From positions 43,182 through 107,181 of the forward strand of contig NZ_VJXQ01000004.1 in assembly GCF_007655485.1 (NCBI RefSeq): a stretch of DNA of 64,000 nt. The letters run 5' to 3'. The notes beneath the pieces were generated by a model. The model searched no databases, was not told where the DNA came from, and was given only the letters and a program-made list of their open reading frames with translations. This document shows, piece by piece, positions 51,687-57,192 of this stretch; the stretch's first letter is position 1, and each line of letters starts with the position of its first letter. The DNA is from Halobellus captivus (lineage in GTDB: Archaea > Halobacteriota > Halobacteria > Halobacteriales > Haloferacaceae). A program made the translations under genes and the position numbers.

Positions 51687-51965
51687 TCACTCAGCCAATC
51701 CGGCCGATTGTATCTGTTGCCACATTCGCGTTCCCTTCGCTGTGAGGTCGTACTGTCGGTTCTTCCGCTGCTCTTCCGGAACGACGAGTTCGACGATCGA
51801 GCGCTTTCGAAGCCGCCGCAGCGCGCGGGAGACGTGTGACGGTGACAGGCTTTCGGCGTTCGCGATCTCGGTCGTCGTCGCGGGTCCGTCCTGGAGGACG
51901 TTTAGCACGGCGAGCCGGTACTTCGAGGAGATGACGAACCCGATTGCGTCCCACTGTGATGACAT
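51687..51965 (-). CDS. Winged-helix transcription regulator (MarR/PadR-like)
   Basis: This 92-residue protein has a winged helix: R-L-A-V-L-N-V-L, T-E-I-A-N-A-E, then S-P-S-H-V-S-R-A-L-R-R-L as recognition helix, and an R-K-N-R-Q-Y-D-L wing. It is almost all DNA-binding domain, so it probably acts as a dimer without a separate sensor. It is the first gene of a two-gene unit with the beta-helix lipoprotein and may control it and itself through the repeats upstream (52155-52213). Confidence 0.87.
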   Translation of the reverse strand: MSSQWDAIGFVISSKYRLAVLNVLQDGPATTTEIANAESLSPSHVSRALRRLRKRSIVELVVPEEQRKNRQYDLTAKGTRMWQQIQSAGLAE

Positions 51966-52154
51966 CGCCTCCCCGTTGTCTCAGAACCGCCTTTGGTATT
52001 CGCTCGCTACAACGTTAGTGAGTGCTATCGGGTGTGGACACAGCGCGGGTTAGTCCGGCGTGGTCCGAGCTTCTATCCCCGTCCCAATCCGGTAGCGGGC
52101 CGGTGTTGCAGCTGAATTCACTCGGGTAAACCGCTGCTTTACTTATATACTGTT

Positions 52155-52213
52155 ACACAAATACGTATGTAAAGAAAAGCAGCTTATCGCAACCGATACA
52201 CAAATCTATGTAA
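52155..52213. promoter_or_regulatory. Repeated ACACAAAT-TATGTAA boxes between divergent genes
   Basis: TTACACAAATACGTATGTAA (52153-52172) has TTACA/TGTAA ends in inverted order, and a close copy without two bases is at 52198-52213. The boxes lie in the 312-bp AT-rich gap (51966-52277) between the winged-helix gene and the DUF7511-like gene, near TATA-like CTTATATAC (52142-52150). They look like operator sites for a dimeric regulator. I see nothing else in this gap. Confidence 0.55.
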
Positions 52214-52277
52214 CCGCCACAAACCGGGTAGTAGGAACTGGATTACAAGTTACTCCCGTTTCAGATTGTTCATTGGT

Positions 52278-52457
52278 ATGTCATCAAAAGGGGACCTGAA
52301 CGGGGAAGTGTTCTCCCTTCGGGCGACTATCGTCGAGTACGAGCACGGTCCGGACGAGTGCACGATCCATCCACTGGACCCGACGGAATCGGGCCGAACG
52401 ACGGAGTGGATCACCGCCCTGGAAGGATCCTACGTGCCGCTCGGGCGATGCCGATAA
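52278..52457 (+). CDS. Small DUF7511-like protein
   Basis: This 59-residue protein starts M-S-S-K-G-D-L-N and contains the short family pattern R-A-T-I-V-E-Y-E-H-G-P-D-E-C-T-I-H-P followed by W-I-T-A. I recall this pattern from the haloarchaeal DUF7511 proteins; the function is unknown. It is monocistronic. Confidence 0.65.
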   Translation: MSSKGDLNGEVFSLRATIVEYEHGPDECTIHPLDPTESGRTTEWITALEGSYVPLGRCR

Positions 52458-52681
52458 CCGACTGTACACTCGGCACTCCTCATTCGCGAGTTGCGCTCCG
52501 AATCCTCGGAGGCCTCGTGTCGGTCTGAGCTGCAATCGATCTGTTCGATTCGGCACCCGGTCCCACGGCAGGGGGTGATCGGACCTCCCCGTGACTGAGA
52601 ATGGATCTCGTGGTATCCGTGCCGCGCTGACGCACTTTGCGTCCCGATTTTCGATTGGGGGCGCAGAAGGTCTTGATACGG

Positions 52682-53704
52682 TTATTCGGCGGTCGGTGTG
52701 GCCGGTGTCGTAGCCCCTTCAGTCGTCTCGTCAGTCGCCTCCTCTGTCGTCTCGTCTGTCGCCTCTCCTGTCATCCCTTCGGTCGCCTCCTCTGTCGTCT
52801 CGTCAGTCGTCCCTTCGGCCGTCTCTGTCTCTTCAGTCATCTCCGTCCCCTCCTCCGTGGCCGTGCCCATTTCCCCGCCCTCCATCGTGTCGGTGGCGAC
52901 TGTGAGGTCGAACGGTTCGTCAGTCGGTGCCCCGCTCGAGTCCAGATATCCCATCGCGAACGCCGTGTATCCGGTCCCCGATTCGAGGTCGACGTCGAAC
53001 GAAGCGACGGCGTCGCTCTCACCCGCGGCACGGACTTCGAGCGTATACGCGTCTGCGGGTACGGTCGCGTATTGGCTGGCCTCTCCGAACGCAAGTTCAG
53101 CGATCAACGGTTCCTCCTCGCCTGCAACGGCGATATCCACGCTCGGGGCGTCGGGCGACGCGTGAAGGACGCGGACCCGAGATTCCCCGTCGCCAACGGT
53201 GGTGACGTCGTCCTCGAAGGCTCGAACCTCGAACGTCTCCGCCTCTAATTCGCCGAGAGCGACCAGCGACGTCGCCGACCCACCCGTGAGCGATACCTCC
53301 TCGTCGAAGACGACGGTTTCTTCGTCCCCTGCGGCGGTGATCTGCACCTGATACGCCTCAGCGGGCAGTGTAAGGTAGTCGCTGACGGTCCGGAACGGAA
53401 CGTCAGTCAGCACCGATTCCTCGTCGACGTAGATGTCCACGTTCGGCGCGTCCGGAGAAGCGTGTACCGCCCGCACGAGCGCCTCTGATTCCCCTCCGTC
53501 CTCCGTCGTTGTTTCCTCGCCCTCGGTCGTCGGAGCGTCTGTTTCAGTGGATTCTTCGGCCCCGGTCGGCGTGACGGATTCCTCCATCTGTCCGTTTCCG
53601 GAATCTCCTGTGTCCGCTCCCCCGCCGCAACCCGCGAGGCCGATTGTCGATATCGCGGTGACTGTACCAACGAACCGCCGTCTGCTGAGGTGTGGTTGCA
53701 CCAT
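52682..53704 (-). CDS. DUF4397-domain lipoprotein
   Basis: This 340-residue protein has a Tat signal (S-R-R-R-F-V-G-T) and the lipobox L-A-G-C near residue 26. A Thr/Glu linker leads to two DUF4397 modules, each starting V-R-x-x-H-A-S-P-D-A-P-x-V-D (near residues 79 and 172). The last 70 residues are repeats of Thr, Glu and Ala. DUF4397 proteins are cell-surface beta-sandwich proteins of unclear role. The gene stands alone; 52458-52681 before it holds no gene. Confidence 0.88.
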   Translation of the reverse strand: MVQPHLSRRRFVGTVTAISTIGLAGCGGGADTGDSGNGQMEESVTPTGAEESTETDAPTTEGEETTTEDGGESEALVRAVHASPDAPNVDIYVDEESVLTDVPFRTVSDYLTLPAEAYQVQITAAGDEETVVFDEEVSLTGGSATSLVALGELEAETFEVRAFEDDVTTVGDGESRVRVLHASPDAPSVDIAVAGEEEPLIAELAFGEASQYATVPADAYTLEVRAAGESDAVASFDVDLESGTGYTAFAMGYLDSSGAPTDEPFDLTVATDTMEGGEMGTATEEGTEMTEETETAEGTTDETTEEATEGMTGEATDETTEEATDETTEGATTPATPTAE

Positions 53705-53916
53705 ACAGGTGGCTGGGAGGGGATACGTAAGTCGCTATTTTCCACCTGTCTCGGTATTGTCGTTCTGTTTGCAGAAAGCGTGCCGTTACACTTCGGTTTC
53801 GATCACCCTACACCCGTCAACACCCGATATTGAACGCCTGCTGTTAGTGTTCGTAGGAGAACCATATATCAGATAACGAATGTATACTATTGCGGTACGG
53901 CTGTCTCTCTCCTCGT

Positions 53917-55185
53917 ATGGTGGAATTATCCAGACCGACCGTCCTTTCGATTGTGCTCGTGATCGTACTGTCGGTAGCGCTGAGCGGAACGAGCGTTGCG
54001 ATGCCGACAGCTGCGACCAGTTCGATGGGCTCGGATGGACCCACAGCCGCACAACTCCAAGAAAACGGGGATGCAGTCGCTGATGGACCGTTTTTCGAAA
54101 TCACGGATGTCCGAACGAATATGCCGGTTAAGGCGGGCGAAACCGTCGAAGTGACCGTCACTGTGCTGAATAGCGGAAACGCAACAGGTGAAAAAGAGGT
54201 GTGGTTCCACCTCGATCAGTACTACAAGGACGACGCCCAATTGGAGTTAGCGCCCGGAGAATCCGAGACGGTAACGCTCACGTACGTGAGCAAGAGCGAG
54301 AACGCGAAAGATTGGACGCTTCGGGTGGACACACCGGACGACCGGCACGAAGAAACAGTAACCATCGAGAAACCCGCCCAACATAGCACTACACGGTCGA
54401 GCGGCGGAGGCAGTGACGGTCACCCCCACTTCGACATCGTCGATATGACTGTCGAGGAACCGATCACGGCGGGCGATCCGCTCCGGATGAGTGCCACCGT
54501 CGAAAACACCGGCCGCGATCTCGGGGAGAAACTGGTCTGGTTCACGGTCGACGGAGAAACCGTGAACGAAACGATCATCGAGCTCCCGGAGGGCCACTCG
54601 ACGACCGTCACGGCCGAATACAACACGTCCATCGAGGCCGCTGGAGAGCACCTCGTCACGGCGAATACCTCCGACGACGTGGTCCGCCGATCGATCGAGT
54701 TTAACGAACCCGTGCGTGCGTTCGAGGTGAAGACTGTCGACACCTCCGAATCGATTATCGCCGGAGAGCAACTGACTGTGACGGCGACCGTCGAAAACGT
54801 CGGCGATATCCCCGCGACTGTCCCTGTCCGGATGACTATCGACGGCCACTTCATCGATGAAGAGCGGGTCGACGTGGCACCGAACGAGTCGGCGACCGTT
54901 GAACTGCAGTATCGAACCAACACGTGGACGACCGGCGAGATAGACGTGACTGTCGGTGCCGAAAACGCATCGGTCTCGCGGCTGGTCACCGTCGTCGAAC
55001 CGACGCCGACGGAGACGACTGAACGGCTGACCGAACCGGAGTCGACGGCGGAACCCGTCGACACGGCCACGACCGCGACGGTGACACCTGCGTCGCAGTC
55101 GTCGTGGAGCGGACCGAATCCCGGCCTCTCGATGCTGGTCGTGATGTTGTTCGTCGGGGCCCTCGCAATCACTCGGTGGGGGTGA
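53917..55185 (+). CDS. CARDB-repeat surface protein with a C-terminal anchor
   Basis: This 422-residue protein has a Sec-type signal (about residues 8-28, ending S-V-A-M-P). Three CARDB-like beta-sandwich domains follow, starting near F-E-I-T-D-V-R, F-D-I-V-D-M-T and F-E-V-K-T-V-D. A Thr/Glu/Pro stalk (about 360-395) leads to P-N-P-G-L, a hydrophobic helix and a short basic end, I-T-R-W-G. The end resembles a divergent PGF-CTERM archaeosortase signal, with Leu in place of Phe. The role is probably cell-surface adhesion. TATA-like strings lie at 53863-53889. Confidence 0.85.
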   Translation: MVELSRPTVLSIVLVIVLSVALSGTSVAMPTAATSSMGSDGPTAAQLQENGDAVADGPFFEITDVRTNMPVKAGETVEVTVTVLNSGNATGEKEVWFHLDQYYKDDAQLELAPGESETVTLTYVSKSENAKDWTLRVDTPDDRHEETVTIEKPAQHSTTRSSGGGSDGHPHFDIVDMTVEEPITAGDPLRMSATVENTGRDLGEKLVWFTVDGETVNETIIELPEGHSTTVTAEYNTSIEAAGEHLVTANTSDDVVRRSIEFNEPVRAFEVKTVDTSESIIAGEQLTVTATVENVGDIPATVPVRMTIDGHFIDEERVDVAPNESATVELQYRTNTWTTGEIDVTVGAENASVSRLVTVVEPTPTETTERLTEPESTAEPVDTATTATVTPASQSSWSGPNPGLSMLVVMLFVGALAITRWG

Positions 55186-55468
55186 TCCCGATCGGGGGGA
55201 TGGGGTGCCGCGTCCGTTTGGCCCCCACGCTCACCGAACGTGACCCCACTGACAAGTAGTGTGTGTCACTTTCACAGTAATCTCGGTGTATTCGAACGCG
55301 TCGCCGACTTCCCCGATTCGGGTAAGTTTCCCTTTCACCCGCTAGAGTGAAAAACCTACTTAGAACGTCTCTCGGTACGATTATCGGATATTCGGATACA
55401 CGCTGTATTACAATACCGGTCCCGGAGCAATGCTGTATCTGTCCCGAGTTCACCCTCGGGGAGTGACT

Positions 55469-56695
55469 ATGGTAGATCCGAACCAACCACAGCCGTCATC
55501 GGTGGAACAGCAGCGCCAGTATCAGCAGCCGTCTCAACAGCAGCCCGCCCGGGGACAGTTCACACCCGTGCAGGCGCAGCCCGCGCAGACACAGCCACAA
55601 TCTCCGCAAACACAGCAGCAACAGCCACAATCTCCGCAAACACAGCAACAGCCTCCGCAAACTCAGGCCCAACAGCCGCAGACCCAACAGTCGGAGTTCG
55701 GGCAGGCGTGGGGTGGATCTCAGCAGAATCCTCAGCAGGGGGGACAGCAACCGAATACGCAACAGCCGCAGACCCAGCAATCCGCTCCCCAGCAAACGGG
55801 TTTCCAGCAGCCGAACCCGCAGCAGGGTGCACAGCAGCCGTTCTCCCAGCAGCCGCAGTCGCAGCAGTCGGCGTTCGGGCAGCAGCCCCAGTCGTCGATC
55901 CCACAGTCGGGACCGCAGGGAGCCCAGTCACCGCAACCCCAGCCGTCGGCCCAACCGGGGTCCGGCGGTCAGCAACAGCCCACCCAGCCGTTCGGTCAGG
56001 GAGCGCAGTACACGCCGCCGACGGCGATCCAGCCGCAGTCGCCGGCGGGTCAGCAGTCGGCGGGACAGGCTCAGGGCGCGGCGATGCAGACTCCCGGGTC
56101 CGCATCCAGTAGCTCCCAGGGGCCACAGCCGGTGCAGGTGACCCCCGTTTCGTCGATACCGCCACAGTCGGGTGCGACGATGCAGACCCAGGGGTCCGAA
56201 AATCCCTTCGCCCAGAGCCAACAGACGTTGGGACAGTCCGGACAGCGTATCGGCGGCCAACAGGGTCAGGGGAGCCAGCAGGCCTCGCAGAGCGAATCAA
56301 GTACCGCTGGAGGCCAGCAGGCGATGCTCTTCGGCAGCCAGTACGAACAGTCGGTTCCGCAGGAGGTTCGAGCCGCGATCGAGGATATGAACCACCTCGA
56401 CAACGTCCTCGGATGGGCGAAAACCCGTCTCGCCCAGCGCGGTAACGGATCGGCTACGAGAGCGTGCGAGGATCTCCACGACTGCGCCGAGATGACGAGG
56501 GAGCTTATGATCCGCGACTCCCCGTTCGCGTCTGCCGCAGTCCGCGAACTCCAGCAGACGATTCAGGGCACCTCTCAGGAACTTCAGCAGTACTCCACTG
56601 AACCCGAGGTCCAGGAGGTTCTGAACCGGATCCAGCAGACGAGCGGTTCCATCGAACAGAGCGTCCCGCGACTCCACTCGGGCTCGCTCGCGTAG
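55469..56695 (+). CDS. Gln/Pro-rich disordered protein with a helical C-terminal domain
   Basis: This 408-residue protein is split sharply. Residues about 1-285 are almost only Gln, Pro, Ser, Gly, Ala and Thr with very few charges, a prion-like composition that is strikingly unlike the acidic proteins around it. Residues about 290-408 are a normal helical domain (V-P-Q-E-V-R-A-A-I-E-D-M-N-H-L-D-N-V) with two cysteines in A-C-E-D-L-H-D-C. There is no signal peptide or membrane segment, so it is cytoplasmic. An Hsp20 gene follows after 8 bp. I do not recognise the family. An in-frame ATG at 55430 is an alternative start. Confidence 0.85.
   Translation: MVDPNQPQPSSVEQQRQYQQPSQQQPARGQFTPVQAQPAQTQPQSPQTQQQQPQSPQTQQQPPQTQAQQPQTQQSEFGQAWGGSQQNPQQGGQQPNTQQPQTQQSAPQQTGFQQPNPQQGAQQPFSQQPQSQQSAFGQQPQSSIPQSGPQGAQSPQPQPSAQPGSGGQQQPTQPFGQGAQYTPPTAIQPQSPAGQQSAGQAQGAAMQTPGSASSSSQGPQPVQVTPVSSIPPQSGATMQTQGSENPFAQSQQTLGQSGQRIGGQQGQGSQQASQSESSTAGGQQAMLFGSQYEQSVPQEVRAAIEDMNHLDNVLGWAKTRLAQRGNGSATRACEDLHDCAEMTRELMIRDSPFASAAVRELQQTIQGTSQELQQYSTEPEVQEVLNRIQQTSGSIEQSVPRLHSGSLA
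55591..55646. repeat. 30-bp tandem repeat in the Gln-rich region
   Basis: ACAGCCACAATCTCCGCAAA and the following bases are repeated exactly at 55621, period 30 bp. This is the clearest part of a longer run of CAG/CAA-rich units that encode Q-Q-P-Q-S-P-Q-T. Confidence 0.85.
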
Positions 56696-56703
56696 GTGTC
56701 ACA

Positions 56704-57192
56704 ATGTCATCAGAACCCTACCGACCGCAGACGCCGTACGCACACCCTGGCGGCTGGCCAGCCGAACAACTGTCGGGACAGGCGCAGTCGACGAGTCCCG
56801 ACGCGATGAGCACGCAGTCCGCCGCACTGGAGTCGGCCTCGATCACCTCAACGGGTGGGCTCCCGATGACGCCGACCCCGTCGATCGATCTCATCGAAAA
56901 CACCGACGAGATCTGGGTGTTCATCGACCTTCCGGGGTTCAAGTCCGACGAAATACAACTCGAGGGCGACCCCCGAACGCTTCACGTCAGCGCCTCGCGG
57001 CCGTCCGAGGTCGAGGACGGCAGAAACGTGCTCGTGAACGAACGAGTGGTCCAGATCGACCGGATGATTCAACTTCCGGCCGACGTCGAGATGGACGAGA
57101 TCGACGCCGTCTTTGAGGACGGCGTGTGTAAGATCACGGTTCCGAAAGCGGCCAGTGAACGGTACCGCGAGATAGACATCCGCTCCGAATAA
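56704..57192 (+). CDS. Hsp20/alpha-crystallin small heat-shock protein
   Basis: This 162-residue protein has a Gln/Ser/Pro-rich N-terminal arm of about 50 residues, similar in composition to the protein encoded just upstream. Next is the alpha-crystallin domain (about 60-160): I-D-L-I-E-N-T-D-E-I-W-V and V-F-E-D-G-V-C-K-I-T-V-P, the conserved end strand. It would hold unfolding proteins in soluble form. The start is 8 bp after the Gln-rich gene, with GGTG as a weak ribosome binding site, so the pair is an operon. It may be the dedicated chaperone of that protein. Confidence 0.9.
   Translation: MSSEPYRPQTPYAHPGGWPAEQLSGQAQSTSPDAMSTQSAALESASITSTGGLPMTPTPSIDLIENTDEIWVFIDLPGFKSDEIQLEGDPRTLHVSASRPSEVEDGRNVLVNERVVQIDRMIQLPADVEMDEIDAVFEDGVCKITVPKAASERYREIDIRSE

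Follow-up and report, generated by a model that had tools for sequence, protein, structure and literature searches.

The glutamine (Gln, Q)-rich, nearly uncharged protein encoded in the window, by which we mean the whole 64,000-nt stretch of haloarchaeal DNA analyzed here, is one instance of a real and recurrent pairing between such a protein and a small heat-shock protein (Hsp20) that carries a GVC motif. Among 29 GVC-type Hsp20 genes from several families (one gene per genome, the AGMC variant of genome G239 included), 28 had a Q-rich, low-charge partner directly upstream or fused to them, 26 as a separate gene and two as fusions (G208, G288), the remaining one having none (G412), versus 0 of 37 ordinary Hsp20 controls with a Q-rich open reading frame (ORF) at the 5' side; the Fisher p of about 8e-18 for this association is descriptive only, as the genes are related. 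Locus L191, initially taken as an "ordinary" control, turned out to hold a pair and is counted with the pairs. A first-pass annotation of the window had credited the Q-rich protein with "its own" Hsp20, and the recurrence of the pairing across several haloarchaeal families, together with fusion in two species, bears this out. To judge from gene content, the recurrence suggests an undescribed two- or three-gene haloarchaeal system. The annotation knew of no described system of this kind, and none was found in the open-access PMC literature searched, an earlier account elsewhere being possible; likewise, no family library or paper searched has a name for the pairing, for the Q-rich partner, or for the third gene. 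Genes outside annotated records were called with our own ORF and codon scripts, and the genome set includes partly contaminated genomes (G410); L, G, and C numbers are our labels for loci, genomes, and contigs.

The gene pair in the window

The features of the locus are given in Table 1. The Met assigned as the start of the Q-rich protein (MVDPNQ) also begins three congeneric homologues, and about 50-95 nt 5' of the start codon lies a block common to four congeneric carriers that looks promoter-like in the alignment. The Hsp20 follows at the distance that had been annotated. Genes for an HTH protein, a DUF4397 protein, and a CARDB-repeat protein flank the pair at window positions 51687-55185; DUF4397 and CARDB lie upstream of the pair in 4/4 congeneric carriers, and inspection of the proC locus in seven non-carriers revealed neither.

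Table 1 Features of the Q-rich/Hsp20 locus in window coordinates, with examples of the third gene at other loci
Feature	Position	Strand	Basis
Q-rich protein gene, 408 aa	55469..56695	+	ORF call, composition, dN/dS
Low-complexity arm, residues 1-285	55469..56323	+	35% Q, 15% P, 87% QPSGAT, 2.8% charged
Cys-poor Csp-like four-helix-bundle domain (predicted)	56321..56692	+	CSP3 profile match, AF2, Foldseek; helical core about 56360-56674
8-bp intergenic spacer	56696..56703	+	TAG stop of Q-rich gene to ATG of Hsp20
Q-associated Hsp20 gene, 162 aa	56704..57192	+	PF00011 E 7.5e-16; clade membership
Hsp20 N-terminal low-complexity arm, residues 1-58	56704..56877	+	72% QPSGAT, 8.6% Q
Alpha-crystallin domain (ACD) of Hsp20	56878..57189	+	PF00011
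Cys142 codon of "DGVC" motif	57127..57129	+	Marks Q-associated Hsp20 clade; GVL in ordinary Hsp20
Conserved upstream block	55373..55418	+	Alignment of upstream DNA of G000, G219, G408, G410
Third-gene examples	L182:2073-2258(+), L172:1060-1245(-), L152:7701-7919(+)		Adjoining GVC-type Hsp20

The first 285 or so residues of the Q-rich protein are, as the annotation had it, nearly all Gln, Pro, Ser, Gly, Ala, and Thr and nearly uncharged, with 34.7% Gln, 14.7% Pro, and a net charge of about 0, compared with a mean of 2.2 ± 1.0% Gln and 24% charged residues in 27 well-called window genes; the richest 100-residue stretch holds 47 Gln, the next-best window gene reaching 9. Its Gln codons are CAG at a fraction of 0.80 versus 0.85 in the window's other genes, and comparison with the nearest congener gives a dN/dS of about 0.34 for the arm and 0.11 for the C-terminal domain (about 0.35 and 0.04 for the arm and the ACD of the Hsp20). 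By its Gln codon use and these dN/dS values the Q-rich ORF is a real gene, and the substitution ratios show it to be under purifying selection. Triplet slippage was rejected as the sole source of the Gln runs, as the Gln codons are mixed like those of other genes. Congeneric arms are 57, 52, and 40% identical to that of the window with 40-96 gapped columns, their composition being kept while sequence and length diverge fast. The arm of the Hsp20, which had been described as similarly Gln/Ser/Pro-rich, does have a biased composition over its 58 residues, with so little Gln, however, that it is better called Pro/Ser/Thr/Gln-rich than Gln-rich. Another Q-rich spot in the same genome (C15) was set aside, since it encodes a small coiled-coil protein whose tail is Q-rich and which we read as prefoldin.

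No Pfam family reached its cut-off over the full length of the Q-rich protein, which gave only sub-threshold chance matches. The protein is probably cytosolic, since no signal peptide was seen by eye, and its composition makes it probably disordered. LEA proteins and small heat-shock proteins often cooperate in desiccation tolerance, and a very hydrophilic chain of low complexity (mean KD -1.4) could accordingly be pictured as a hydrophilin- or LEA-like protectant, a Q/G/S-rich, water-replacing shield against aggregation on drying or dilution with a small heat-shock protein as partner. We consider this distinctly improbable, as the high Pro and Gln and the few charges are unlike typical charged LEA proteins and as co-inheritance with one special Hsp20 clade, fusions included, would be left unexplained.

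A separate clade of Hsp20s

The match of the window Hsp20 to PF00011 lies above the family cut-off, so that an alpha-crystallin domain is present, and the protein carries DGVC in place of the GVL-type motif of ordinary haloarchaeal Hsp20s. A profile built from paired Hsp20s returned, from 391 Halobacteria genomes, long matches scoring well above the bulk of Hsp20s, and one census counted GVC-type units in 26/391 genomes. This figure is a minimum, since the scores did not set at least one pair (that of G239) apart from ordinary Hsp20s. In a tree of the ACD only, which rests on 104 columns and leaves many inner forks unresolved, the Q-associated Hsp20s fell on one side of a branch (support 95/74) and 40 of 41 ordinary Hsp20s on another (100/99), with subgroups of pairs that have the C-terminal domain of the window protein (97/88), pairs that lack it (92/76), and fusions (96/82). 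The motif is GVC throughout the clade except for AGMC in G239 and GVV in a solo group. Q-associated and ordinary GVL Hsp20s share the alpha-crystallin domain and a C-terminal I-x-I-type ending, and the former differ in the GVC motif, a different ACD signature, a low-complexity arm, a separate clade, and a Q-rich neighbor.

The solo group comprises Hsp20s of G301, G220, and G406 (L167, L169, L151) that have their own Q-rich arm and no partner; they are nearly identical in different families, which suggests recent transfer. At the base of the clade stands an Hsp20 of G039 (L184:787-1983(+)) whose long arm is highly charged, made of Arg/Glu/Pro repeats, and not Q-rich. The gas-vesicle family GvpH was considered and rejected: no gvp genes were recognized near the pairs, and there was no GvpH match.

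Imperfect repeats in the Q-rich arm, and its divergence at a faster pace than the C-terminal domain, might be taken to mean that a repeat-expanded low-complexity gene has come to lie incidentally before an Hsp20. That the two are chance neighbors is nonetheless scarcely credible given the recurrence, the separate clade, the fusions, and the purifying selection.

The recurrent unit, its variable partner, and a third gene

In the recurrent unit, a gene for a Q-rich protein of low charge, about 225-500 aa long, is followed after a small gap or with an overlap by that of a GVC Hsp20 with a low-complexity arm. Most units have -4 to 17 bp between the two genes, one genus showing ATGA overlaps, and 25 of 25 partners listed have 22-47% Gln, 4-16% charged residues, and a net charge near 0. 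Each fusion (L174:763-1983(+) in G208 and L185:952-1995(+) in G288) places a Q-rich segment of some 230-300 aa in front of a GVC-type Hsp20 within one polypeptide. The partner ends in a bundle resembling copper-storage proteins (Csps) in the window genus, Halobaculum, and G362, and elsewhere either in a short motif of another kind, "LADALARRLGLTSQQLAQVLPQL" (family f2), or without any recognizable domain; because the folded domain varies in this way, it is the Q-rich chain that accompanies the Hsp20. In Halobaculum the pair is plasmid-borne, with the Q-rich protein annotated as "hypothetical protein"; on plasmids of H. marinum (L243) and H. lipolyticum (L245) it adjoins an orc1/cdc6 replication gene.

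In units without the Csp-like domain, the GVC Hsp20 is adjoined by a third gene of about 65 codons ("YRLVSELVRPGD...VRVTYLKPV"), which was present in every such unit examined except the G288 fusion and in no unit with the domain. It is convergent at the G208 fusion and is also found in G412 beside the GVC-type Hsp20 that has no Q-rich partner. The gene occurred in 18/391 genomes, 17 of the 18 at GVC-type Hsp20 units, the other being a weak match (G063); a phylum-level sample added no genera, and no match was obtained in Pfam, NCBIfam, PHROGs, the PDB, or plasmids. Genome G376 has an extra copy (L242:1426-1686(+), C9), in whose vicinity neither a Q-rich gene nor an Hsp20 was seen.

A predicted copper-storage fold depleted of cysteines

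No Pfam family matched the C-terminal domain of the window protein above cut-off. The annotation had held that membership of this domain in a well-described family of other function would count against its reading, and the domain did prove to be kin to the four-helix bundles of copper-storage proteins, albeit without their cysteines. A profile of the family (A1) matched CSP3 in the PDB with an E of 1.7e-7 and Csp1 at about 1e-3, and the NCBIfam Csp1 model TIGR04401 matched 18 of 54 family members (best 3.9e-8), its curated cut-off of 100 bits being passed by no haloarchaeal match in the 145 genomes searched. The window copy alone matched neither TIGR04401 nor, by BLASTP, the canonical Csp of its own genome, to which a Cys-rich, Q-armed member of the family is 50% identical over 101 residues; on these comparisons, Csp homology is established through the family, not through the single window sequence. 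AlphaFold2, run without templates on an alignment of the window domain and 17 relatives (Cys-rich ones included), predicted four long helices in a four-helix bundle at a mean pLDDT of 86.6, and in Foldseek Csp3/Csp1 chains made up 10 of the 11 best matches, with target TM of 0.75-0.87 and E of only 0.01-0.05.

Characterized Csp3s have 16-19 Cys (PMC10155185). Armless haloarchaeal Csps have 14-17, several Q-armed ones 9, those of Natrialbaceae and some Haladaptataceae mostly 4-5, and those of the clade of the window 0-2, a range that covers all Hsp20-paired copies; the window domain has two. Like Csp3/Csp1 (DUF326, TIGR04401) in predicted fold and profile homology, the window domain differs from them in having lost the core cysteines and gained a Q-rich arm, and the Cys-lined core of Csps is absent from it. 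By profile and model it is a relative of copper-storage bundles without their metal core, and with its cysteines lost the window protein is unlikely to store copper. The homology, and the existence of Q-armed relatives with 9 Cys, could still be read as a sign that the domain stores or senses Cu(I) and that the Q arm localizes it, which is very unlikely given the Cys counts of paired copies, the separate Cys-rich Csp in the same genome, and the paired Q-rich proteins that do without the domain. That ordinary copper-storage protein, with 15 Cys, is encoded about 35 kb past the window (L092:1384-1740(+), G000 C16). In G228, two tandem Csp-like domains occur within one Q-rich protein (L042:6350-7510(+)).

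Relatives of the domain were present in 70 genomes of 29 genera in the search of 391 Halobacteria genomes, nearly all with a Q-rich arm before the domain and often after it too. The annotation had asked whether an hsp20 gene always adjoins the domain and had held that relatives lacking the Q-rich part or the hsp20 neighbor would count against its reading: the arms are kept, and hsp20, against that reading, is far from constant, being a neighbor at 8/61 domain loci examined, G362 included. The carriers of domain and hsp20, namely those eight genomes and the congeners G408 and G410, fall in the window's genus (4/17 genomes), Halobaculum, and one Natrialbaceae MAG (G362). Two groups of paired copies appear in the domain tree, both inside the Cys-poor clade and amid Q-armed proteins that are unpaired, which implies repeated gain or loss of the pairing between the domain and Hsp20. 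The Csp-like domain was therefore rejected as the element that pairs with the Hsp20, since most of its relatives are unpaired and most pairs lack it.

A related-locus search with the window domain found nothing, and a diverse alignment gave no usable pattern; a tighter alignment of the domain yielded 17 named Natrialbaceae/Haladaptatus loci. In Natrialbaceae, the Q-armed Csp-like genes that are unpaired (L039:6014-6736(-) and 20 loci like it, in 9 genera) have a DUF5828 gene downstream on the same strand and, upstream, a divergent uracil phosphoribosyltransferase-like gene, an arrangement that is probably old synteny.

Unpaired Q-armed proteins also bear on whether the Hsp20 is a co-translated holdase dedicated to the solubility of a Q-rich protein that has some other structural job and would precipitate in salt. 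The closeness of the two genes and their ATGA overlaps point to synthesis being coupled, and a near-uncharged protein is unusual within this proteome; many Q-armed Csp-like proteins, however, have no dedicated Hsp20, and in the fusions chaperone and client would stay tethered permanently. We regard this explanation as rather unlikely.

Discussion

We read the pair as a small heat-shock protein and its low-complexity companion, and it stands a fair chance of being a condensate system in its own right. The haloarchaeal cytosol contains molar KCl, and the formation of condensates, fibrils, or a gel by the Q-rich protein under the control of the Hsp20, as the annotation had proposed, is physically plausible by analogy. 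In the reading that we favor, which has in our estimate not quite an even chance of being right, the Q-rich protein would be an intracellular scaffold whose uncharged arm self-associates in molar KCl into reversible, salt-promoted condensates or gels, and the dedicated Hsp20 would keep these dynamic or use them to park misfolded proteins. The Hsp20 would enter the assembly through its own low-complexity arm and allow the uptake of misfolded proteins, and the high Pro content would argue against amyloid and for a liquid or gel. In the window version, the Csp-like four-helix bundle would probably act as an oligomerizing node that makes the arms multivalent, since characterized Csps form tetramers (PMC10155185) and the domain could supply multivalency in the same way. 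More tentatively, and as a possibility that we rate somewhat lower, the units may together represent a widespread undescribed condensate system, in which a Q-rich scaffold phase-separating in molar KCl is served by a dedicated Hsp20 clade and by interchangeable folded modules, these being the Csp-like bundle on the scaffold or the third small protein.

Several findings count against the scaffold model: only 3.5% of the residues in the arm are aromatic "stickers", there is little Gln in the arm of the window Hsp20, the Hsp20 of G412 is partnerless, and the Q-armed Csp-like proteins of most other families have no neighboring Hsp20. Precedents exist for its physical basis. FUS, a largely uncharged disordered protein, phase-separates again above 1.5 M KCl (PMC7889641), and theory is available for uncharged disordered proteins near 3 M salt (PMC13269793). 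The Q-rich protein resembles such uncharged low-complexity proteins in its low charge and Q/G/S/P-rich composition, but it has fewer aromatics, much Pro and Gln, and no RNA-binding domain that we could see.

Small heat-shock proteins regulate condensates, and sequestration by yeast Hsp42 depends on an N-terminal extension that includes a prion-like domain (reviewed in PMC13287201). The haloarchaeal pair may be a two-gene analogue of Hsp42, in that a small heat-shock protein would work with a low-complexity, prion-like chain, which in the two fusions is an N-terminal extension of the Hsp20. In Hsp42, however, the prion-like part is on the chaperone itself, whereas the haloarchaeal chain is usually a separate upstream gene and is Gln/Pro-rich; the likeness is one of layout. 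In the HSR1-hsp20 operon of Archaeoglobus fulgidus, another archaeal hsp20 lies behind a partner gene and is transcribed together with it (PMC9133787), with the difference that HSR1 is a DNA-binding regulator and not a low-complexity protein.

Most of what is known about condensates and the chaperones that act on them comes from eukaryotes, where salt is about 0.15 M. Were an Hsp20 indeed devoted to a low-complexity chain in cytoplasm of molar salt, nature would offer a test of phase separation at high salt, a regime so far observed in vitro, and such a pair would offer the archaea a simple, genetically tractable model of a chaperone and its condensate.
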